From Mangrovimonas xylaniphaga (lineage in GTDB: Bacteria; Bacteroidota; Bacteroidia; Flavobacteriales; Flavobacteriaceae), in NCBI RefSeq assembly GCF_001280435.1, contig NZ_LBIP01000013.1, forward strand, positions 62,001 through 126,000: DNA of 64,000 nucleotides, written 5' to 3'. A program made the position numbers and the translations under genes. Of the stretch, positions 1,105 through 23,376 are shown one piece after another. Positions within the stretch are counted from its first letter, which is position 1. The number at the start of each line of letters is the position of its first letter. The notes beneath the pieces were generated by a model that was given only the letters and a program-made list of their open reading frames with translations, did not search any database and had not been told where the DNA came from.

Positions 1105-1143
1105 CATTATATCTCAACTATAGGCTATAGTTGAGATATAATG
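1105..1143. repeat. Perfect 19-bp inverted repeat between convergent genes
   Basis: Positions 1105-1123 and 1125-1143 are exact reverse complements separated by a single base. The right arm and part of the left arm overlap the last codons and TAG stop of the leftward gene at 1118. It lies 20 bases past the oxyR stop. Neither strand has a T-run directly after the stem, so it is not a textbook intrinsic terminator. It could still act as a bidirectional terminator or mRNA-end stabiliser. Confidence 0.85.
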
Positions 1144-2065
1144 AATACTGTTGTTGGGAATTCACATCTCCACCAAACAAATCTTGGGCAATCGGTAAGG
1201 TATATTTTAATCCCAGTATAAATTTATTCTTTGAAACTTCAGCTCCCAAAGAACCATAAATGATATGGCCATTGGTATCGGCCAATGTTTCTCCATACTG
1301 CTCTATGCTTTCGTAAACATCTCCAGACACTCCTAGAAAGGGCCTCAATGTGGTGGTTTTCAAATTCACATCATAAAACACATTTGCAGCACTGCTGAAC
1401 TGGTTTCCGAACTTATAGTCATTCTCGTTTTCAGTCTTCAGGTAATAAGCTAAACTAGCCCCTACTCCCAAGTTCTTCTTTTTATAACTATACAAAACGG
1501 TAGCAACCATATCCCAACTTCCAGTACCAACCTGAAACCCTGGGTTGACTCTATCGGTAAGTTGCTCTTCAAATTCTCCTGTTGGCAATTTCATTCCCAA
1601 ACCAAAATTCAAGCCATGTCCAGACAGTTCTCTATTAGCAAACACCAAGCTATCCCTTTTCTGCTTTTTATAAAAATTAAGCTGGTACCATCCCATTATA
1701 TTGATATCTCCCAAACCATGAATATGCTCTGTACGGTCATCAAAATGTCTGTACAAATCCTGAAATGGTACAATCGCACTTACATAAATATTTTTGGACA
1801 GTGGAACCCTTCCCCACAATTGATAGGTATGAAACGTTTCTTCACTTTTGGGTGAATTCGAAAAAATGCCATCCCTAGATTCAAAATCTTGATGGATATA
1901 GCGTACCCCAACAAAATTGGAAGTACTTAAATCTCCAAAACTGGAGCTCCCACTACTAGTGGTACAACCACATAAATCACAAGCTTGCGAAGCAGTTACA
2001 ACCCCCAAACACAGAAATAAAGCGGTATAAAACGTCTGTTTTTTAATATTCTGAAAAACGTTCAT
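1118..2065 (-). CDS. Predicted outer-membrane protein with N-terminal CDLCGC motif, copper locus
   Basis: The 315-residue protein has a signal peptide (about residues 1-28, ending in TASQA), then CDLCGC close to the mature N-terminus and a Ser/Gly-rich linker. The rest is rich in alternating aromatic beta-strands and ends in a C-terminal aromatic strand (YSLYLNYSL), which suggests an outer-membrane beta-barrel. I know this architecture only as an uncharacterised flavobacterial 'transporter-like' protein. The cysteine motif suggests metal binding. Its start overlaps the end of the dihaem peroxidase gene by 23 bases, so the two are almost certainly translated from one mRNA. A role in copper transfer across the outer membrane is inferred from neighbours only. 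Confidence 0.7.
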   Translation of the reverse strand: MNVFQNIKKQTFYTALFLCLGVVTASQACDLCGCTTSSGSSSFGDLSTSNFVGVRYIHQDFESRDGIFSNSPKSEETFHTYQLWGRVPLSKNIYVSAIVPFQDLYRHFDDRTEHIHGLGDINIMGWYQLNFYKKQKRDSLVFANRELSGHGLNFGLGMKLPTGEFEEQLTDRVNPGFQVGTGSWDMVATVLYSYKKKNLGVGASLAYYLKTENENDYKFGNQFSSAANVFYDVNLKTTTLRPFLGVSGDVYESIEQYGETLADTNGHIIYGSLGAEVSKNKFILGLKYTLPIAQDLFGGDVNSQQQYSLYLNYSL

Positions 2066-3089
2066 CAGTCAAAAATTCATTATCGGTTAAAGTTTTCAAA
2101 AAGGCAATAAGACTTTCCTTTTCATAAGCATCCAAAGAGATACCATAGGTTTGATCCTCTCTTAATAATATTGGATCTACATTGCCATTTTCTACCATCC
2201 CATGGTCATAAAAATCCAACACAGCCTCTAGGGTTTGGAACCTCCCATCATGCATATAAGGATAGGATTTTTCTACATTTCGTAAACTCGGCACCCTAAA
2301 CTTGTAAAGGTCATTTGGGTCTTCGAAAATGTCAAAACGTCCTTTATCATCCAATTGCGGATTGATGGGCAAACCATTGTCTCGATAGGTTTGATCTGTA
2401 AACAAATCGGTGGCATGGCAAGAAGCACATTTGTTTTCAAAAGTTTGCAAGCCATCCAATTCCATAGCAGATAAGGTAACGTCATCTTCATTGCGAACAT
2501 ATTTATCATATTTTGAATTGGAAGACACCATCATCACCATAAACTGTGATAATGCCTTGAGCATATTGGCAGCGTTCACGGCACCATCTTCAAAGGCCCT
2601 TTCAAACTGCTGTTGGTAATTAGGGTCGGACTTTAGCTTTTCAACCACATTGCCAATGGTTTCCCCCATTTCCAAATGACTCGTAATAGGAATAATGGGC
2701 TGCATATCAAGATGCGTAGCCGCTCCGTCCCACATAAATTCATTTAGAAAGGCCAAATTTTGAATTGGAAGAGAATTACGCAGGCCAATGGCACCATCAA
2801 CACCATGACTCAAATTATGCCCATGGTGGGTAAAGGCAAAGGCCTGTTCATGGCAAAAAGCACATGGAATGGCATCATTCACCGAAAGCTTTCCTTCGTA
2901 AAACAAGGATTTCCCAAGCTCAAAACCTGCTTCGGTAAGTGGATTGTTATCCAAATTATAAGTCAATTCAGGGAAATTGGATGGCGCTTCCAAAGCTAAG
3001 GGTACTGGTACATAACCAACTTCCTGATCTTTGGAACAAGACAACACAAACACCTGAAGAAACATTATTACAATGATCTTTTTCATCAC
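2043..3089 (-). CDS. MbnH-like dihaem cytochrome c peroxidase (MauG family)
   Basis: The protein has 348 residues with a lipoprotein-type signal peptide (FLQVFVLSC, Cys at about residue 18) and two c-type haem motifs, CAFCH at about residue 77 and CASCH at about 223. This is the pattern of the CcpA/MauG family. MauG-like members use a bis-Fe(IV) state to oxidise residues of a partner protein. The gene immediately follows an MbnP-family gene. In methanotrophs the dihaem enzyme MbnH converts a tryptophan of MbnP to kynurenine, creating a copper site. I infer the same pairing here. A simple periplasmic peroxidase is the alternative. The gene overlaps the next one by 23 bases. Confidence 0.8.
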   Translation of the reverse strand: MMKKIIVIMFLQVFVLSCSKDQEVGYVPVPLALEAPSNFPELTYNLDNNPLTEAGFELGKSLFYEGKLSVNDAIPCAFCHEQAFAFTHHGHNLSHGVDGAIGLRNSLPIQNLAFLNEFMWDGAATHLDMQPIIPITSHLEMGETIGNVVEKLKSDPNYQQQFERAFEDGAVNAANMLKALSQFMVMMVSSNSKYDKYVRNEDDVTLSAMELDGLQTFENKCASCHATDLFTDQTYRDNGLPINPQLDDKGRFDIFEDPNDLYKFRVPSLRNVEKSYPYMHDGRFQTLEAVLDFYDHGMVENGNVDPILLREDQTYGISLDAYEKESLIAFLKTLTDNEFLTDERFSEY

Positions 3090-3162
3090 AACGTCATATT
3101 AAATGATAGTGCACAGGCTGGAACATCCTTTAGAATGCTCCAGACAAACACTAGCTTATTAA

Positions 3163-3963
3163 TTAGTTATTATGAACATGATGTACTTCGAACATGCCAG
3201 GAAGATTGTTTGCAATTACAGGCGTTGTTTCAGAACTGGTATGCACCTGACCGTAACCATCGGCAAAATTCACAGAGGTTTCTCCATCAAAAACCTTGGC
3301 AAAATCCGCCTTGATATGTACTTCAGGGGAAGCTGTTTCTCTTACTCTTACGGTGTTTGGAAATGACAAGGTTACTTCTCTATAGTTGTCCAATGAAGTC
3401 CCCACACTTCCCATATGAATGTTCAAAGGTTCATCCACAAGCTCTCCTGTTGAAAAGGTGCCGTCAAAACGTGTAAATTTATACCCGGTTGCCCAAGACC
3501 ACATCATTCCTGCCGCTTCGGCTTCTACAAGAAAATCGCCTTGTCCTTCAGCTCCCATCGCAAAACGCTCCTGATCAATCCCAATACCAAAGGTAATTTC
3601 AGTATAGTCGGCTGCATCAACATTGTCCAAGGTCACAAAAATCTCACCGGCATTGTTACCGTTGCTCTCATCAATAATAAAAGCGTTGTTTTCCAAAGGG
3701 TAGGTAAATGTATTTCCTTCGGCATCCTTTACGCGAATGTTGCTTATGATATATTTAAGGGTTTCCAATTGATAGGATTCTCCGTTGGACTTATTATAGG
3801 TCACGCCAAAAATAAAATCTTGGTCACCTACGCCATTGTCGAATTTTAAAGCTAGAGTTCCTGTTTGACCTGTTAAGTCTGTTGTATTATTGTCATCATC
3901 AGATGAACATGATATAATTGAGGTGCATAGCAATACTGCAAATGCAAATTTGATAATCTTCAT
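3163..3963 (-). CDS. MbnP-family copper-binding lipoprotein
   Basis: This 266-residue lipoprotein (lipobox ending SIISC, then SSDDDNN) has the MbnP-type core: a first strand LALKFDNGVG, the segment YQLETLKYIISNIRV, the aromatic motif MMWSWATGYKFTRFDG near the middle, and a His-rich C-terminus (MFEVHHVHNN). The tryptophans of WSW are candidates for oxidation by the dihaem enzyme encoded next. The histidines fit copper binding. It lies 73 bases upstream of the MbnH-like gene and downstream of the CNGKC gene, all leftward. Its location is probably the periplasmic face of a membrane. Which tryptophan, if any, is modified cannot be read from sequence alone. Confidence 0.8.
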   Translation of the reverse strand: MKIIKFAFAVLLCTSIISCSSDDDNNTTDLTGQTGTLALKFDNGVGDQDFIFGVTYNKSNGESYQLETLKYIISNIRVKDAEGNTFTYPLENNAFIIDESNGNNAGEIFVTLDNVDAADYTEITFGIGIDQERFAMGAEGQGDFLVEAEAAGMMWSWATGYKFTRFDGTFSTGELVDEPLNIHMGSVGTSLDNYREVTLSFPNTVRVRETASPEVHIKADFAKVFDGETSVNFADGYGQVHTSSETTPVIANNLPGMFEVHHVHNN

Positions 3964-4036
3964 TTGTAAAATTTAATATTGGGGTGCTTTTCATGGCAAG
4001 CACCATAAGCCTTGTAAAAAAATTGAATATTAAATT

Positions 4037-4390
4037 TTAGGCCATTGGAGGCTTGTAGATGGAGTGCTCAACTAGATGGGCATACTGCTTGTTGTAGTAG
4101 AATCTGGGTTTCTTCTGAAAGCTAAAATTGTTGCTTTTAAAGATTACTTCAGACTGTTGAACCAAAAACACCGGAAAAAAAGCTTCTGCCAAAAATGTAG
4201 CTTCGGTACTATCTTCTGAAGACGTTGAAGTAAGCTGCAATTGTTTTGCTAAATGACATTTACCATTACATTGCAACTGCGGTTTGTCCTTATTGACACA
4301 ATAAGTTTCAATAATGTAGTCGATATTCAACTCATAATAGCCTATCTGGCCCAAGTAGAACATGGGGCGCAAGGAAAAAGCAAAAAGCAA
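4037..4390 (-). CDS. Small membrane-anchored CNGKC-motif protein, first gene of copper operon
   Basis: This is a conserved flavobacterial protein of unknown function with a hydrophobic N-terminus, then NIDYIIETYCVNKDK and QCNGKCHLAKQL, a Cys/His set suited to metal binding. The open frame has no ATG where the family usually begins. The coordinates use a TTG at 4390, but the frame stays open upstream and reads LKKIFLLILLFAFSLRP, a much better start of a membrane segment. A non-ATG start at 4412-4417 (CTG or ATT) is therefore likely. A perfect -7 element lies at 4429-4436, which would give a very short leader. Similar proteins occur near metal and haem uptake genes. Its function is not known. 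Confidence 0.7.
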   Translation of the reverse strand: MLFAFSLRPMFYLGQIGYYELNIDYIIETYCVNKDKPQLQCNGKCHLAKQLQLTSTSSEDSTEATFLAEAFFPVFLVQQSEVIFKSNNFSFQKKPRFYYNKQYAHLVEHSIYKPPMA

Positions 4391-4428
4391 TATGAGAAGA
4401 AATATCTTTTTCAGAATGAAATTTTCGG

Positions 4429-4436
4429 CAAAGATA
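4429..4436 (-). promoter_or_regulatory. -7 element of the copper operon
   Basis: The minus strand reads TATCTTTG, an exact TAnnTTTG match. Transcription would begin a few bases downstream, so the first gene must start close by, which supports the non-ATG start discussed for that gene. Confidence 0.6.
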
Positions 4437-4472
4437 ACTCGCTAATCCTTATTATTCTAAAAAAGAGTCATA

Positions 4473-4500
4473 AAAAAGGCCACCAATTGGTCGCCTTTTT
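4473..4500. terminator. Intrinsic terminator, bidirectional
   Basis: An AAAAAGGC...GCCTTTTT stem with inner ACCAA/TTGGT pairing, one mismatch and T-runs on both strands. It lies directly downstream of the small leftward gene ending at 4503 and separates it from the copper operon promoter. Confidence 0.85.
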
Positions 4501-4502
4501 CT

Positions 4503-4700
4503 TTATGCTTTTAAATAAATTAAACATTGATTTAGTTCTGGGTTTTGCTGTACAAGTGAATCGATAAAGATTCTAAGTTCGTCAATTTCATATGGTAATA
4601 ATCTATTGACTGCCTTTTGTACCTCTTTGCAAAACAACGTAGCATCAAAACTCACTTTTTTAAGGATTGTTTTGGTGTACTCAAACATTGCTCTTGCCAT
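4503..4700 (-). CDS. Conserved flavobacterial 65-residue protein, function unknown
   Basis: The protein begins MARAMFEYTKTILKKVSFD and contains one cysteine-bearing helix (LFCKEVQKAVNRLL). It has no signal peptide or membrane segment, so it is probably cytoplasmic and helical. Near-identical short proteins occur widely in Flavobacteriaceae, to my recollection without an assigned function. It is a monocistronic unit ended by a strong hairpin just after the stop. The compact conserved N-terminus and the terminator support a real gene. Confidence 0.75.
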   Translation of the reverse strand: MARAMFEYTKTILKKVSFDATLFCKEVQKAVNRLLPYEIDELRIFIDSLVQQNPELNQCLIYLKA

Positions 4701-16800: not shown

Positions 16801-18453
16801 TTAACTCGTAAAATACGATAGAATAGCGACCACAATGACAACTAAAAGTACCGAAAGTACTATGTCGATTGTAGCATAACTACCTTTTGAAGCAGCTTTA
16901 TCTTCAGCTGTCAAGGTTCCAAAAGAAAGACCACTGATTTTCTCATAATTTGGAGCCCCAGTAGCCAAACTAACAGTGACACATAAAATCACTGAGAAAA
17001 TAAACATGAAGATAGCCATATGGGCAAAATTGATGGAGGCAAAACTAAACATAATGCTATCTACCGTTTCCCCGGAAGCAATTTGTGGCTGATAATAAAT
17101 TTCAGATCCCAAACGTAAAATCAACAACACCAATCCCGTCATTAAAGTTGTAATGGCCGCTTGGGAATTGACACGTTTCCAGATAATCCCCAAAAGGAAT
17201 ACCGCAGTTACAGGAGGCGCAATATACGACTGTACATTTTGAAGATATTGGTACATCACACCACCTCCAATTTTTTCCATAATAGGAATCCAGATAATCC
17301 CCAATATTACAATAAAACCGGTAGCTACTTTACCAATGGTAAGCAATTCACGTTCGCTTTTTTGTGGTTTCAACTTCTTGTAAATATCAATAGTGAAAAT
17401 CGTCGAGCAAGAATTGAACACTGATGCCAACGAACTCATAAGCGCTGCCATCAATCCTCCTGCAACCAAACCTTTCAATCCAACTGGCAACAAGGTTTTC
17501 ACCAACATTGGAAATGCTCTATCCGCTTTCTCTACCCCGAACATTTCTGGGTTTTGAATGGTCAAAGCAAAAGCGATGATACCGGGAATCAAGAAAATCA
17601 AGATAGGCAACAACTTTAAATACGCTCCAAAAATGGCGCCTCTTCTACCTATTTTAATATTATGGGCTGCCAAGGTACGCTGCACGATATATTGATCGGT
17701 ACACCAATACCAAACCCCTACAACGGTCCCTCCAAATAACATTCCTGTCCAAGGAAAATCGGGGTCAGTTATTGGACGCCACATGTTGAAATGATCTGGG
17801 CTCACCGCCGTAACAGTTTCCCTCAATTGCGACCACCCGCCTACTTCCTGCATTCCTAAATAGGTAATGATCATCGATCCCAAAATAAGGATAACCGTTT
17901 GAAGCGTTTCCGTATAAATTACGGCCTTCATCCCTCCCACTACGGTATAAATTCCAGTGAAAATGACGATGCCAATAGCGCCATACCAAAAAGGGATTCC
18001 CAACAATTCAGAAACCACAATTCCTCCGGCGTAAATGGTTACAGACACCTTAGTCAAAACATAAGCCAACAATGAAAAAACCGACAAGAACCATCTAGAG
18101 CGACTATCAAATCGTTTTTCCAAAAATTCGGGCATGGTAAAAGCACCACTCCTAATGTAAAATGGTAAAAACAACCATCCCAAAAGCAGTACAATCCAAG
18201 CATGCAATTCATAATGCGCCATTGGAGTGCCCGATTCAAAACCCGTCCCCGCTAATCCAACAACGTGCTCCGACCCGATATTTGAAGCAAAAATAGAGGC
18301 TCCAATAACGAACCAGCCCACATTACGGCCTGCCAAAAAGTAATCTTCTGTGTTTTTATTCTTTTGAAGTACAACCCATACCGCCACGGCAATAAGGGCC
18401 AAAAAATAGAGTCCCAAAACCCACCAGTCGGCGGTTTGCAAAACTGTTTCCAT
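16801..18453 (-). CDS. Sodium/solute symporter (SSS family), probable xylose transporter
   Basis: The 550-residue membrane protein has about 13-14 hydrophobic segments and SSS-family motifs: NTEDYFLAGRNVGWFVIGAS near the start, SNIGSEHVVGLAGTG, and GLKGLVAGGLMAALMSSLASVFNSCST. This family couples sugar uptake to a sodium gradient. It is the last gene of the operon GH43-xylB-xylA-symporter, 153 bases after xylA, so xylose (or a short xylo-oligosaccharide) is the likely substrate. That assignment is from context; sequence alone does not fix the sugar. Confidence 0.9.
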   Translation of the reverse strand: METVLQTADWWVLGLYFLALIAVAVWVVLQKNKNTEDYFLAGRNVGWFVIGASIFASNIGSEHVVGLAGTGFESGTPMAHYELHAWIVLLLGWLFLPFYIRSGAFTMPEFLEKRFDSRSRWFLSVFSLLAYVLTKVSVTIYAGGIVVSELLGIPFWYGAIGIVIFTGIYTVVGGMKAVIYTETLQTVILILGSMIITYLGMQEVGGWSQLRETVTAVSPDHFNMWRPITDPDFPWTGMLFGGTVVGVWYWCTDQYIVQRTLAAHNIKIGRRGAIFGAYLKLLPILIFLIPGIIAFALTIQNPEMFGVEKADRAFPMLVKTLLPVGLKGLVAGGLMAALMSSLASVFNSCSTIFTIDIYKKLKPQKSERELLTIGKVATGFIVILGIIWIPIMEKIGGGVMYQYLQNVQSYIAPPVTAVFLLGIIWKRVNSQAAITTLMTGLVLLILRLGSEIYYQPQIASGETVDSIMFSFASINFAHMAIFMFIFSVILCVTVSLATGAPNYEKISGLSFGTLTAEDKAASKGSYATIDIVLSVLLVVIVVAILSYFTS

Positions 18454-18606
18454 AAATAGTAGTTTAGTTATTAGGTATTATAATTTTTACTGTTGTAAGG
18501 TAAGACTTATATTTAAAATTTAATTGATTTTTTAATGGCCATAAGAAATTTGGGAGCTAACCTTTATCGTTAATCCCTATAACTTTAAAAATGACATATA
18601 TCCGAT

Positions 18607-19923
18607 TTAAATGTATTGGCTAATAATATTTTCAAACAACTCCTGTTTACCACTTTGCAATGGAATTTCACCATCTTCTGCAGCGATTTCATACAAATCT
18701 GACAAGTCCAACTTTCCTTTTTCAAACTCTTTACCTTTTCCTGAATCGAAAGAACTGTAACGCTGTTTTCTTAAGGAATCATAACCAGAATAGGAAATGA
18801 TTTTGTCTGCTGTAATCAAAGCTCTGGCAAACGTATCGGCACCTCCAATATGTGCCAAAAAGATGTCTTCCAAATCGGTAGAATTACGACGGATTTTAGC
18901 ATCAAAATTAACACCGCCCCCCTGCAAACCACCTGCCTTTAAAAACACTAACATAGCTTCGGTGACTTCTTGTATGTTGTTAGGAAATTGATCGGTGTCC
19001 CAACCATTTTGGTAATCCCCTCTATTCGCATCGATACTGCCCAACATTCCCGCCCGTGCAGCCACTTCCAATTCGTGCTGAAAAGTGTGCTGTGCCAAGG
19101 TTGCATGGTTAACTTCCACATTGATTTTAAAATCGCGTTCCAATCCATATTCCTTTAAAAACCCAATGGCCGTGGCGGTGTCAAAATCATATTGGTGCTT
19201 TGTAGGTTCCATAGGTTTGGGCTCAATGAAAAAAGTGCCTTTAAAGCCTTGCTTTCTGGCATAATCGCGAGCCATAGTTAAAAACTGGGCCAAATGGTTC
19301 AACTCCCTTGCCATATCTGTATTCAATAAGGACATATAACCTTCTCGACCACCCCAAAACACATAGTTTTCACCATTTAAGGCAATGGTCGCATCTATAG
19401 CTAATTTTACCTGTCCTCCTGCTCTTGCCAACACTTTAAAATCTGGATTGGTAGCTGCACCATTCATATACCTAGGGTGTGTGAAGCAATTGGAGGTTCC
19501 CCAAAGTAACTTTTTACCATGGAATTTCTGCTTATTCTTGATATAATCCACAATAGTACTCAAGCGCTTTTCCGATTCTGCAAAAGTTGGAGCTTCCTGA
19601 ACCAGATCAAAATCGTGCATACAGTAATAATCAAATCCAATTTTGTCTAGGAACTCAAACGCGGCATCTGCCTTGTCTTTCGCGGCCTGAATGGGATCTG
19701 AAGACTGATCCCAAGGAAAATTCTGCGTGCCCACTCCAAAAGGATCGGCACCTTGGCCACAGAACGTATGCCAATACGCTACGGCAAACTTAAAATGCTC
19801 CCGCATGGTTTTCCCTGCCACTATCCTATTGGGGTCATAATATTTAAATGCCAATGGATTATGGGACAAATTCCCCTCATACTCGATATGTTTGATGCCC
19901 TTGAAATATTCTTTAGTTGCCAT
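18607..19923 (-). CDS. xylA: Xylose isomerase
   Basis: A 438-residue TIM-barrel enzyme that converts D-xylose to D-xylulose in the cytoplasm using two divalent metals. Seen: YCMHDFDLVQEA (catalytic His/Asp region), FWGGREGYMSLLNTD, FIEPKPMEPTKHQYDFD (metal Glu), INVEVNHATLAQHTFQHE and GSIDANRGDYQNGWDTDQFP. The length fits the class II enzymes. It lies 51 bases downstream of xylB on the same strand, so it acts as the first intracellular step for the xylose released by GH43, GH3 and GH10. Confidence 0.98.
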   Translation of the reverse strand: MATKEYFKGIKHIEYEGNLSHNPLAFKYYDPNRIVAGKTMREHFKFAVAYWHTFCGQGADPFGVGTQNFPWDQSSDPIQAAKDKADAAFEFLDKIGFDYYCMHDFDLVQEAPTFAESEKRLSTIVDYIKNKQKFHGKKLLWGTSNCFTHPRYMNGAATNPDFKVLARAGGQVKLAIDATIALNGENYVFWGGREGYMSLLNTDMARELNHLAQFLTMARDYARKQGFKGTFFIEPKPMEPTKHQYDFDTATAIGFLKEYGLERDFKINVEVNHATLAQHTFQHELEVAARAGMLGSIDANRGDYQNGWDTDQFPNNIQEVTEAMLVFLKAGGLQGGGVNFDAKIRRNSTDLEDIFLAHIGGADTFARALITADKIISYSGYDSLRKQRYSSFDSGKGKEFEKGKLDLSDLYEIAAEDGEIPLQSGKQELFENIISQYI

Positions 19924-19974
19924 TTTAGTTATATTTAGTCAAGATTATGATGTTTAAATTTTATGAATATTAGC

Positions 19975-21465
19975 TTACAAATTGCTTAAATACCTTCGCC
20001 TCAAATCCAGCTCCCATAATTGAAACGCCTCTGTATATGGGCCTTTATCTTTAACGGGACCATAAGTGCAGACTTTTTCATTGTCTGAAAAAACGTCTTC
20101 CAAACTTTTAAAATCTCCCATACTTACCCCTGCCGCCCTTGCAGCTCCAATGGCCCCTGTAGTATCCAAAATGTCTATTTCGGAATCAATAAGGGTTGCC
20201 AAAGTGGTTGCGAATATTCCAGATCGGAATAGGTTATCGTTGCCTGCCCTAATATTGGACACCTTTACACCATCTCCTTTCATAATATTGACTCCGTACA
20301 CAAACGAAAAGGCAATGCCCTCCAAAGCAGCCCTAAAAAGATGCTCAGAATGATGTTTATTAAAATTTAGGTTGAATATGGCCGCCCCGTCATTACTGTT
20401 GTTCATCATGCGCTCTACTCCATTTCCAAATGGAATAACCCGCAAACCATCAGAGCCAATAGGAACGTTTGCCGCCATGGCGTTCATCTGTTCATAGTTT
20501 TCACCTTTCAGCACATGTTCCTTCATCCAACTGTATTGAATCCCTGCGCCATTTATATTGAGAAGTTTGCCAATAATAGATTGTTCCGTGGTATAATTTA
20601 CATGGGCAAAATTGTTGATACGAAGACTTTCTTGAGTGCTTTTATTGTCAGTTACAGCATACACGACTCCCGAAGTGCCTCCAGTAGCGGCAATTTCACC
20701 AGGTCTCAAAACATTTAAGGACAAAGCATTGTTAGGTTGGTCGCCTGCACGATATAGCACTGGAATGCCACTGGGCAACCCTGTAAGCTTTGCCGCCGAT
20801 TTGGTCACGGATCCCTGAACAGAAAAAGTAGGCACCATGTTAGGAATCAAACCAGTATCAATTCCCATATAATCAAACAACCAATTCGCAGGGGTATTGG
20901 CCTTGAAATCCCACATAATCCCTTCGGAAAGTCCAGAAATGGTGGTAGTAGCTTCTCCTGTTAATTTGAGAGCAATAAAATCGCCGGGCAATAAAAACTT
21001 ATGTACTTTTTCATAAAGCGAAGGTTCATTGTCCTTCACCCATTTGAGTTTGGATAAGGTGAAATTCCCTGGAGAATTCAAAAGATGTGTCATGCACTTT
21101 TCTTCTCCCAGATCTTGAAACACCTTATTTCCGATCATAGCAGCCCTACTATCACACCAAATAATGGAAGGTCGTAAAACCTCGAAATCCTTATCTACCA
21201 AAACCAAACCGTGCATTTGATAGGCAATGCCCACTCCCTTTATTCTAGCTTTGGCAACACCTGTGTCCTTGATTAATTTTTGTGTCAAGATACCCAGATA
21301 TTCCCACCAAAGATTAGGGTCCTGTTCGGCCCAACCAGCTTTGAGGGACATAATCTCCATTTCCTTATCAGGATATTGGGCAAGTCCCAAAACCTTGCCA
21401 GAAGCAGCATTGACCAATGCGGCTTTTATTGATGAACTTCCTAAATCGTATCCTATATAATACAT
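19975..21465 (-). CDS. xylB: Xylulokinase
   Basis: The 496-residue FGGY-family kinase phosphorylates D-xylulose to xylulose-5-phosphate. Seen: phosphate-binding YYIGYDLGSSSIKAAL at the N-terminus, the QMHGLVLVD substrate loop, and the C-terminal ATP-binding segments AATGGTSGVVYAV and RAGNDNLFRSGIFATTLA. It lies 27 bases downstream of the GH43 gene and 51 upstream of xylA. Its product enters the pentose phosphate pathway. Confidence 0.96.
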   Translation of the reverse strand: MYYIGYDLGSSSIKAALVNAASGKVLGLAQYPDKEMEIMSLKAGWAEQDPNLWWEYLGILTQKLIKDTGVAKARIKGVGIAYQMHGLVLVDKDFEVLRPSIIWCDSRAAMIGNKVFQDLGEEKCMTHLLNSPGNFTLSKLKWVKDNEPSLYEKVHKFLLPGDFIALKLTGEATTTISGLSEGIMWDFKANTPANWLFDYMGIDTGLIPNMVPTFSVQGSVTKSAAKLTGLPSGIPVLYRAGDQPNNALSLNVLRPGEIAATGGTSGVVYAVTDNKSTQESLRINNFAHVNYTTEQSIIGKLLNINGAGIQYSWMKEHVLKGENYEQMNAMAANVPIGSDGLRVIPFGNGVERMMNNSNDGAAIFNLNFNKHHSEHLFRAALEGIAFSFVYGVNIMKGDGVKVSNIRAGNDNLFRSGIFATTLATLIDSEIDILDTTGAIGAARAAGVSMGDFKSLEDVFSDNEKVCTYGPVKDKGPYTEAFQLWELDLRRRYLSNL

Positions 21466-21492
21466 CTTGTGATTAGTTAATAACAGTGGTTT

Positions 21493-23220
21493 TCAAAAAT
21501 GATTGCTGGAAGCGTACATTGCCAACATGCTCCCTACAAATCCCTTGGCTACTTTGGTACTCAATAATGAGGCATCCACATTTGCTTTCAGCAATCGCCA
21601 ATCCTCATCTTTATGTTGTTTATAATAGAAATCGTAATATTTACTGCGCCCCACAATTTTCACCCAAAGGTTTTGATTGTGTTCCTCCAAAGCTTTGGAG
21701 GCCAAAATCTCTAACGAATCGCCAAAACTTTGCTCTAAGAATACCTCTGAGTTTCCCTGATCAGTCAAACGTTTACCTATAAATAAATAATGCTTTTCAT
21801 TTTGAAAGGCCACCAACCCAGCAGCACCAGTTGATTGAGAAGGCACAAATGAAAATTCGGTAGCCACCTCAAAACTGGCATGCTGTTGCCGTCTCCCAAT
21901 AAAGGAAAACTTGGTTTCCTCATGCATATTTTCATCTTGTGGCGTTACCAGTAATTGACCATTTTCCAAAGTGTACCATTGCGAATTGGGAGTTCTAATG
22001 AAATTCCAAATATTTCCCAATGACCCTGAATCAAAGTCATCTCTATTCACAAAATTGCCCGTGGTTGGAGGAATCTGTTCTGTATTTAACGCTAATTCGG
22101 GTCTTGTATACACAAATAGATGTGGATCATTGCCCTGTTCAAAAACAGGCCAACCGTTGGCTTCCCATTTCAAGGGCAGCATAAAGGTTTCCCTACCTGT
22201 GTTGTAATGGTCGTCACCATAAGGTCGACATCCTAAATATACGCCCCACCAATCGCCATTGGGCAATTCCACAAAATCGGCATGACCTGTTGTTGTAATT
22301 TGGTTGGAACGCTCTTTAGGCAAATGTCTTTGGGTCAATATCGGGTTGTTTTCATAACTGGTATATGGCCCGTAAATATGCTTGCTTCTAAACACCACTT
22401 CGGAATGGTTATAGCCCGTTCCCCCTTCCGCACAAAACAAATAATAGTAGCCATCCTTTTTGAAAATATGTGGAGCTTCAATCCAGACTGGCTCCTTGGC
22501 CATGTCAGTACCTCCATCAACCAATAATTTTTGATCAGAAATTACCTTCTGCTTTTTCAAATCGTATTCCCAGGTATAAATGGCTCTATGCCCATTGTGT
22601 TTGGAAATATTCCCTGGAGGTGGACCATTATGGGTAATGTAGATTTTACCATCGTCGTCAAAAAACAAATCAGGATCTATGCCGTCTATTTCGGGCAACC
22701 AAATGGGTTCGGACCAACCTTCCTCCGGATTTGTACTGGTCACGATAAAATTCCCTTTGGAACTTACATTAGTGCATATCACAAAAAAAGTTCCTTGGTG
22801 GTATCTAATAGTAGGTGCAAAAAGCCCTCTGGACACTCCTCCATTAAAATCTGCTTGTGATTTTCTAGTAATGACATGGCCAATCTGCTTCCAATTAACC
22901 AAATCACTACTTTTAAAAATAGGCAATCCAGGAAAATAGGAAAATGACGAAGTCACTAAATAATAAGCGTTTTCTGCCCTACAAATACTAGGGTCAGGAT
23001 AAAACCCTGCCAATATTGGATTTACATATTCATTTTGTGTTGGAATGTTACTATCAAACATGGTATCCTGTCCTTGATATTCAAACCAATCAAAGGCGAC
23101 TTCTTCATTATACGCAATCGGTTGCTTTAAATTGGAAAAAAATTTGGCATTGGAAACCAATACCAAACCCAAACTTATTAGCGCCACAAAAAGAATAAAT
23201 TGATTTTTTAAAACTTTCAT
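21493..23220 (-). CDS. GH43 beta-xylosidase / arabinofuranosidase
   Basis: The start is set at the ATG at 23220 (MKVLKNQFILFVALISLGLV), which opens a signal or anchor sequence; the upstream extension would begin with TTG and break it. The five-bladed GH43 domain covers about 50-330: general base Asp in FYPDPSICRAENAYY, EAPHIFKKDGYYYLF with the acid Glu, and TTTGHADFVELPNGDWW. A C-terminal beta-sandwich (about 370-560) resembles the GH43_C2 domain. It removes xylose or arabinose from xylo-oligosaccharides. First gene of the operon with xylB, xylA and the symporter; an imperfect -7 (AACTTTTG on the minus strand) lies at 23266-23273. Confidence 0.93.
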   Translation of the reverse strand: MKVLKNQFILFVALISLGLVLVSNAKFFSNLKQPIAYNEEVAFDWFEYQGQDTMFDSNIPTQNEYVNPILAGFYPDPSICRAENAYYLVTSSFSYFPGLPIFKSSDLVNWKQIGHVITRKSQADFNGGVSRGLFAPTIRYHQGTFFVICTNVSSKGNFIVTSTNPEEGWSEPIWLPEIDGIDPDLFFDDDGKIYITHNGPPPGNISKHNGHRAIYTWEYDLKKQKVISDQKLLVDGGTDMAKEPVWIEAPHIFKKDGYYYLFCAEGGTGYNHSEVVFRSKHIYGPYTSYENNPILTQRHLPKERSNQITTTGHADFVELPNGDWWGVYLGCRPYGDDHYNTGRETFMLPLKWEANGWPVFEQGNDPHLFVYTRPELALNTEQIPPTTGNFVNRDDFDSGSLGNIWNFIRTPNSQWYTLENGQLLVTPQDENMHEETKFSFIGRRQQHASFEVATEFSFVPSQSTGAAGLVAFQNEKHYLFIGKRLTDQGNSEVFLEQSFGDSLEILASKALEEHNQNLWVKIVGRSKYYDFYYKQHKDEDWRLLKANVDASLLSTKVAKGFVGSMLAMYASSNHF

Positions 23221-23376
23221 AACCCGAATCAAGGATGTGAGCAAAAATTATTTCTTGACAATTTACAAAAGTTTTACATAAAAATTAACAATTAAATAAT
23301 TTTTATCTGTCTAATTTTCGTATTACTAATTTTTAAGCTAAAAAAATTCAACAATCGGTAATTTGTTAAAAAAGAT

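Follow-up and report, generated by a model that had tools for sequence, protein, structure and literature searches.

A four-gene MbnP/MbnH unit of Mangrovimonas xylaniphaga as a candidate copper import operon of Bacteroidota

The passage of copper across the outer membrane has been settled for few bacteria. Among the described systems closest to the locus studied here, CorA has been shown to be a surface protein (PMC3912023), and OprC acquires copper, has a copper site formed by C143/M147 and H323/M325, and is encoded in an operon with a FoxB-like partner (PMC8610252). Kenney and Rosenzweig (2013) noted that conservation of the pair of MbnP with the di-haem enzyme MbnH reaches well past the producers of methanobactin (PMC3621798); that the pair also occurs away from methanobactin operons, is covered by TIGRFAM models and resembles MopE and CorA has likewise been published. 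Here we analyse a stretch of 64,000 nucleotides from Mangrovimonas xylaniphaga (contig NZ_LBIP01000013.1 of assembly GCF_001280435.1, positions 62,001 to 126,000; the whole stretch is called the window), in which such a pair is flanked by the genes for a membrane protein with a CNGKC motif and for a beta-barrel with a CDLCGC motif. The pair itself is ordinary; what is new is its company, an unnamed CNGKC family and a CD.CGC barrel. On balance we favour reading the unit as an operon for the capture and import of copper, which would make it a candidate answer to the question of outer-membrane copper passage in Bacteroidota.

The four genes run leftwards on the minus strand in the order CNGKC protein, MbnP, MbnH and barrel, and all four frames are open. 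As the original prediction had it, the unit is compact, MbnH and the barrel sharing 23 bases (2043–2065) and the two other intergenic gaps measuring about 73 bases each. Its beginning had been placed at 4417, but the codon there is ATT and the CTG at 4414 is the likelier start of the CNGKC gene. In order to see how the arrangement is distributed, 296 Bacteroidota genomes were sampled and 106 loci were fetched around MbnP or barrel matches. PF20243, the Pfam model of MbnP, was found in 78 of the 296 genomes and the barrel profile in at least 97, of which at least 36 gave strong matches (E < 1e-45). Only four gene clusters recurred widely at the 106 loci – MbnH (101), MbnP (96), CNGKC (48) and barrel (44) – and the next reached 16. 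The 97 MbnP genes of the sample had MbnH beside them in 96 cases, CNGKC within 2.5 kb in 42 and a barrel within 5 kb in 33 (25 of these barrels with an intact cysteine motif); all four genes stood together in 31 cases, 24 of them with the barrel motif intact, and 52 had MbnH with no CNGKC or barrel gene nearby. Genes were called crudely, as longest frames, and five short or weak MbnP places (G220:C23, G192:C31, G212:C59, G140:C26 and G178:C4) were left out. Named barrel relatives numbered 425; of the 80 whose barrels were most similar, 73 had the exact four-gene order, three were cut by contig ends and four differed. With 31 of 97 MbnP genes and 73 of these 80 relatives in this setting, the arrangement is far beyond chance, and MbnP/MbnH proved to be conserved in the neighbourhoods of other genomes.

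MbnP is encoded at 3163–3963 (minus strand). This frame matched PF20243 at 3.4e-44 (151.4 bits, over a cut-off of 27), and its AlphaFold2 model (predicted local distance difference test score, pLDDT, 88.8) aligned with 7l6g, the MbnP of Methylosinus trichosporium, at a Z score of 16.1 and a root-mean-square deviation (rmsd) of 3.5 over 214 aligned residues, the next entry reaching Z 4.9. A single-sequence search of the PDB with MbnP gave nothing real; a profile search returned 7l6g at 1.4e-4, with the WxW and His183 region aligned. Against TIGR04052, the MbnP equivalog, the window protein scored 50.4 bits, under the NCBIfam cut-off of 140. CorA and MopE were not among the sequence and fold matches listed for MbnP, which excludes nothing. 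The MauG-type di-haem enzyme MbnH occupies 2043–3086 from an ATG at 3086, or begins at a GTG at 3089 (minus strand). The longer frame matched CCP_MauG of Pfam at 2.7e-50, its best NCBIfam model was TIGR04039 (1.4e-66, 224.9 bits, below the cut-off of 362.85), and its best PDB match was the di-heme enzyme 6e1c (4.1e-40), which we take to be the MbnH of Methylosinus. The two haem motifs, CAFCH at 2850–2864 and CASCH at 2415–2429 (both on the minus strand), are kept in 111 of 112 MbnH frames; with two CXXCH motifs and an adjoining MbnP gene, the enzyme belongs with MbnH. The identification of both proteins was thus confirmed by profile searches, and no other family laid claim to 3163–3963. Elsewhere, MbnP is followed by two tandem MbnH-like genes (loci L081, L113, L117, L123, L128, L133 and L134).

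The pair had also been predicted to lack methanobactin genes. This held, in that MbnB (TIGR04159) was not found in the window's genome (0 of 1; a search of 14 control genomes gave one match, below cut-off), but it is not remarkable, given how many MbnP genes are accompanied by MbnH alone, and we rejected the pair as a novelty in itself, as publications have described it in the absence of methanobactin from 2013 onwards. MbnH could instead be a plain peroxidase of a peroxide stress unit placed under a neighbouring OxyR. An OxyR-like LysR regulator does lie next to the barrel gene, at 140–1084 and convergent with it (6.3e-64, below the model cut-off). Such a regulator, however, was present at just 6 of the 106 loci and was therefore rejected as a member of the unit, and MbnH keeps company with MbnP almost without fail, so that we hold this explanation to be highly improbable.

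The barrel gene lies at 1118–2065 (minus strand) and its product is 95% identical to the barrel of Mangrovimonas sp. TPBH4. Its AlphaFold2 model (pLDDT 80.7) resembled the COG4313 channel 4rl8 (Z 24.7, rmsd 2.7 over 245 residues) and FapF (5o65; Z 24.6). The model contains 13 DSSP elements, i.e. 12 strands if 112–118 and 121–132 are taken as one broken strand, and the protein is accordingly predicted to be a 12-stranded outer-membrane barrel with an N-terminal segment before strand 1, as in the COG4313 channel. PF13557 was matched by 5 of 32 relatives and not by the window barrel, and the barrel profile had no PDB match up to E = 1. The CDLCGC motif (1964–1981, minus strand) stands directly after the signal peptide and before the first strand, and C29, D30, C32 and C34 are invariant in the barrel alignment (A5, 67 rows). 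By analogy, the CDLCGC segment would be the counterpart of the lumen-plugging segment seen in the solved COG4313 channel. A role of the motif as a lipid anchor was rejected, as it lies well beyond the signal peptide in many relatives. Some barrels beside CNGKC genes (L153, L162, L202, L207 and L208) have no CGC motif; they start with RPD.HAPI.VM.DH.H..G and carry Met-rich stretches.

The list of fold matches also included PcoB (Z 13.0), an outer-membrane barrel serving copper resistance. Together with P-type ATPases of unknown metal, seen at 7 of the 166 fetched loci, this resemblance would suit a unit for efflux or detoxification, with MbnP sequestering surplus copper and the barrel exporting it. 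Two counterparts point the other way: OprC, whose site is shared by the receptors that replace the barrel elsewhere, acquires copper (PMC8610252), and CorA, which is functionally analogous, can be repressed by copper (PMC3912023). Export thus appears quite unlikely.

In favour of copper import, MbnP and the barrel vary together. The conserved W155-S-W157 (3493–3501) is, we presume, the place where kynurenine is formed, and His183 (3415–3417) is nearly invariant (103 of 105 rows); with a single cysteine, mature window MbnP has no four-cysteine motif. Three further histidines, all likewise encoded on the minus strand, split the MbnP alignment: His216 (3316–3318) and the C-terminal tail H262-V-H264 (3172–3180) are tied to barrels in which the C[DE].C[GS]C motif is intact. 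Specifically, the HxH tail was present in 33 of 33 MbnP proteins beside such barrels (once as EHDH, in L149, which the stricter rule of the tree test and of the His216 tally does not count as a tail) and in none of the 8 beside degenerate CDFCN or CDFCS barrels, and a different His-rich tail was seen in 3 of the 64 without a barrel. His216 was found in 33 of 33, 0 of 8 and 7 of 64 proteins, respectively. A second MbnP alignment (A6, 64 rows) held two exceptions, L294 (a second copy) and L296 (another gene order). On the best tree, tail and barrel motif each changed at least six times, four changes being forced by well-supported branches; the tree test gave four independent pairs, three or four in the same direction and none opposite, which is not significant (p 0.125 to 0.25). 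As MbnP histidines and barrel cysteines vary together, a hand-over between the two proteins would be accessible to mutation.

MbnP carries a lipobox, with Cys19 followed by SSDDD (3892–3909, minus strand), and at least two D/E residues follow the lipobox in all 75 lipobox-bearing proteins among 78 named relatives. Because this acidic run resembles the surface-export signal of Bacteroidota (LES consensus, PMC5080379), we suggest that MbnP is a surface protein.

The first gene of the unit encodes the CNGKC protein (4037–4414 from the CTG, or from an ATT at 4417; minus strand), with an N-terminal hydrophobic helix, the three-cysteine motif CX9CNGKC (CVNKDKPQLQCNGKC, 4256–4300, minus strand) and a C-terminal PP. 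It belongs to a family defined in this analysis by CX9CXGXC, the helix, the terminal PP and a neighbouring transporter or MbnP gene, all of which the window protein has; C40, C50, G52, C54, P123 and P124 are invariant over 40 rows. No Pfam or NCBIfam model matched the window protein, a few scattered weak matches were returned among 40 relatives, and the CNGKC profile had no PDB match up to E = 1. The statement that the two flanking proteins lack an assigned function was therefore upheld in Pfam and NCBIfam. Neither CNGKC nor CD.CGC proteins were described in any of the literature titles and abstracts searched, most subscription papers, including the main 2019 and 2021 papers on MbnH and MbnP, lying outside reach; the string “cngkc” occurred in a single paper, a review of spider venoms.

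The family is widespread, the profile being found in at least 122 of the 296 genomes, and of 60 CNGKC genes at MbnP or barrel loci, 43 stand immediately before MbnP. We also fetched 60 CNGKC loci without MbnP, leaving out weaker ones; the CNGKC and barrel profile counts are lower bounds. The 63 CNGKC genes at these loci were followed by a TonB receptor (38), a barrel (8), YtkA (6), SCO (3), a second CNGKC gene (2), other genes (4), a gene on the opposite strand (1) or a contig end (1). Of the 561 other genes there, only 15 stood before a TonB receptor. SCO, YtkA, PCuAC or Nos genes were present at 22 of the 60 loci, and example neighbours were confirmed as SCO1-SenC, PCuAC, NosD and NosL (Pfam) and, for one protein, NosZ (NCBIfam). 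In L160, L168 and L211, NosZ is found near CNGKC-receptor operons; NosL and NosD occur in the same three loci and in L187 and L199, and NosD in L158.

Such neighbours could also mean that the unit supplies a particular cuproenzyme, an SCO-like assembly line loading a periplasmic enzyme with no uptake route involved. CxxxC is the motif of SCO as well, SCO genes were found in 21 of the 166 fetched loci, and nos genes accompany several CNGKC loci. Beyond the four genes of the unit, however, no cluster exceeds 16 of the 106 loci, no NosZ match was obtained in the window's genome, and the usual partner is an outer-membrane channel or receptor. We consider cuproenzyme supply unlikely.

The receptors that follow CNGKC genes also bear on copper import. 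In the receptor cluster, 23 of 52 TonB-dependent receptors have the CxxxM and HxM of the OprC site intact, and all 23 follow CNGKC (17) or CNGKC-YtkA (6). The receptor of L157 found OprC as its only PDB match (2.8e-19), GACTDKMD aligning with GACPNRMD and HIMD with HIMD, the stretches of OprC that contain C143/M147 and H323/M325. The loci to which the TonB-receptor profile was applied were also those it was derived from. Among 101 MbnP loci, 8 of which had entered through the barrel search, 41 had a barrel within 5 kb, 12 an OprC-type receptor and none both (hypergeometric probability 0.0012, relatedness ignored); in the 93 loci of the 296-genome sample alone, the corresponding figures were 33, 12 and none (0.0034, relatedness again ignored). 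These 12 receptors were listed by hand from four aligned site columns, that of L121 being without the HxM[DE] pattern. In the genus of the window, three genomes were searched for an OprC-type receptor and gave no match; the search was positive in three of three known holders, the query's own genome included.

Based on these observations, we propose that MbnP, probably on the cell surface and matured by MbnH through conversion of tryptophan to kynurenine, would bind copper and hand it over to the barrel, with His216, His262 and His264 serving the transfer. The CDLCGC segment, in or at the channel lumen, would act as a copper-binding gate, and the CNGKC protein, anchored in the inner membrane through the N-terminal helix, would use its three cysteines to take up Cu(I) in the periplasm. 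Elsewhere in Bacteroidota an OprC-type TonB receptor, many times likewise preceded by a CNGKC gene, would form the gate; in the genus of the window the barrel may take the place of that receptor. The original prediction had left the route as acquisition or delivery, of copper or another metal; acquisition gains support from the CNGKC genes before OprC-type receptors and from the SCO, YtkA, PCuAC and nos genes nearby. Gene content and gene order, the family membership of MbnP and MbnH, the OprC site in receptors linked to CNGKC and the co-occurrence of histidines and cysteines are observed; the barrel fold is a prediction, and metal, direction, surface location, kynurenine, hand-over and both the place and the role of CNGKC are inferred. 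We also put forward, tentatively and as a possibility, that CNGKC is an undescribed, widespread family of copper-import accessory proteins in Bacteroidota serving exchangeable gates (OprC-type receptor, Met-rich barrel, CD.CGC barrel), and that CD.CGC barrels represent a new class of copper channel, plugged by cysteines and supplied by a kynurenine protein via a purpose-made three-histidine site.

Several observations weigh against copper import as outlined here. Residues 19–42 of the barrel, which include the CDLCGC segment, fall below pLDDT 50 and are disordered in the model, which is why the lumen position is argued by analogy. For the COG4313 channels examined to date, hydrophobic molecules are the presumed cargo (PMC4493636). 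The link between tail and barrel rests on few independent events, and intact-motif barrels stand beside CNGKC with no MbnP in the fetched stretch (L150 and L205); a CDLCGC-type motif therefore does not need MbnP. The acidic run is not specific to MbnP with barrels, as it is shared by 30 of 40 MbnP proteins that have other neighbours and, among named MbnH with a lipobox, by 43 of 56. Neither gate was present at 48 of the 101 MbnP loci. Lastly, 19 of 42 CNGKC-linked receptors have no OprC site, some receptors best match siderophore models, and a PepSY_TM protein, of a kind that also occurs with siderophore receptors, follows 9 of those 19. The site-less receptors, and the fact that CNGKC precedes barrels and receptors of several kinds, would also be expected if CNGKC, with cysteines that are structural and carry no metal, helped to assemble or control outer-membrane transporters. 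The three cysteines are invariant, however, and copper genes accompany over a third of the MbnP-less loci (the 22 noted above), and we judge this role improbable.

Concerning expression of the unit, a promoter-like element of the -7 type, TATCTTTG, is located at 4429–4436 (minus strand). It has the form TAnnTTTG, which we take to be the Bacteroidota -7-type consensus, and this form recurs within the last 90 bp upstream of the CNGKC gene in 48 of 76 relatives, versus 6.2 expected from mononucleotide shuffles. Just 5 of the 76 loci had a correctly spaced TTG element (0.6 in shuffles). The single promoter predicted for the unit would rest on the recurrent TAnnTTTG form. The leader between this element and the CNGKC start is apparently about 10–20 bases. 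A simple rule picked CTG (24), TTG (21) or GTG (8) as CNGKC start codons in the 76 named loci (L217–L296), never ATG, and failed in 23. Directly upstream of the unit are a small frame (4503–4700) and a terminator-like repeat (4470–4500); GCGAC repeats and T runs recur there in relatives. An operator palindrome was considered for this region and rejected, the recurring element consisting of GCGAC inverted repeats then T runs, which resembles the terminator of the preceding gene. Elsewhere in the window, 16801–23244 holds sugar-use genes (sodium:solute symporter, FGGY kinase, GH43), and a weak SCO match at about 58262 was dismissed as it sits in a redoxin gene.

If copper import is correct, MbnP and MbnH would gain a transport partner, and one small gene, CNGKC, would serve as a marker of likely copper import operons. 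Compared with the MbnP/MbnH pair of TIGR04052 and TIGR04039, the window shares the order of the partners, the di-haem enzyme, WxW with His183 and the MbnP fold, but its proteins score below both NCBIfam cut-offs, MbnP has the extra His216, His262 and His264 and no four-cysteine motif, and CNGKC and barrel genes are joined to the pair. With CorA/CorB and MopE/SACCP of methanotrophs it would have in common a surface copper protein, a co-transcribed di-haem enzyme and kynurenine in the site, whereas the accessible parts of the papers concerned mention no barrel or CNGKC gene (PMC3912023, PMC3621798). The likeness to the TonB-dependent copper transporter OprC/NosA lies in the CxxxM-HxM site of the 23 CNGKC-linked receptors; the FoxB-like partner of oprC, in contrast, has a PepSY counterpart here only behind site-less receptors. 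Finally, although the window barrel differs from the COG4313 channel (Pput2725, 4rl8) and FapF in its CDLCGC motif and in lacking a PF13557 match, it is predicted to share with both a barrel of 12 strands and a segment that precedes the first of them.

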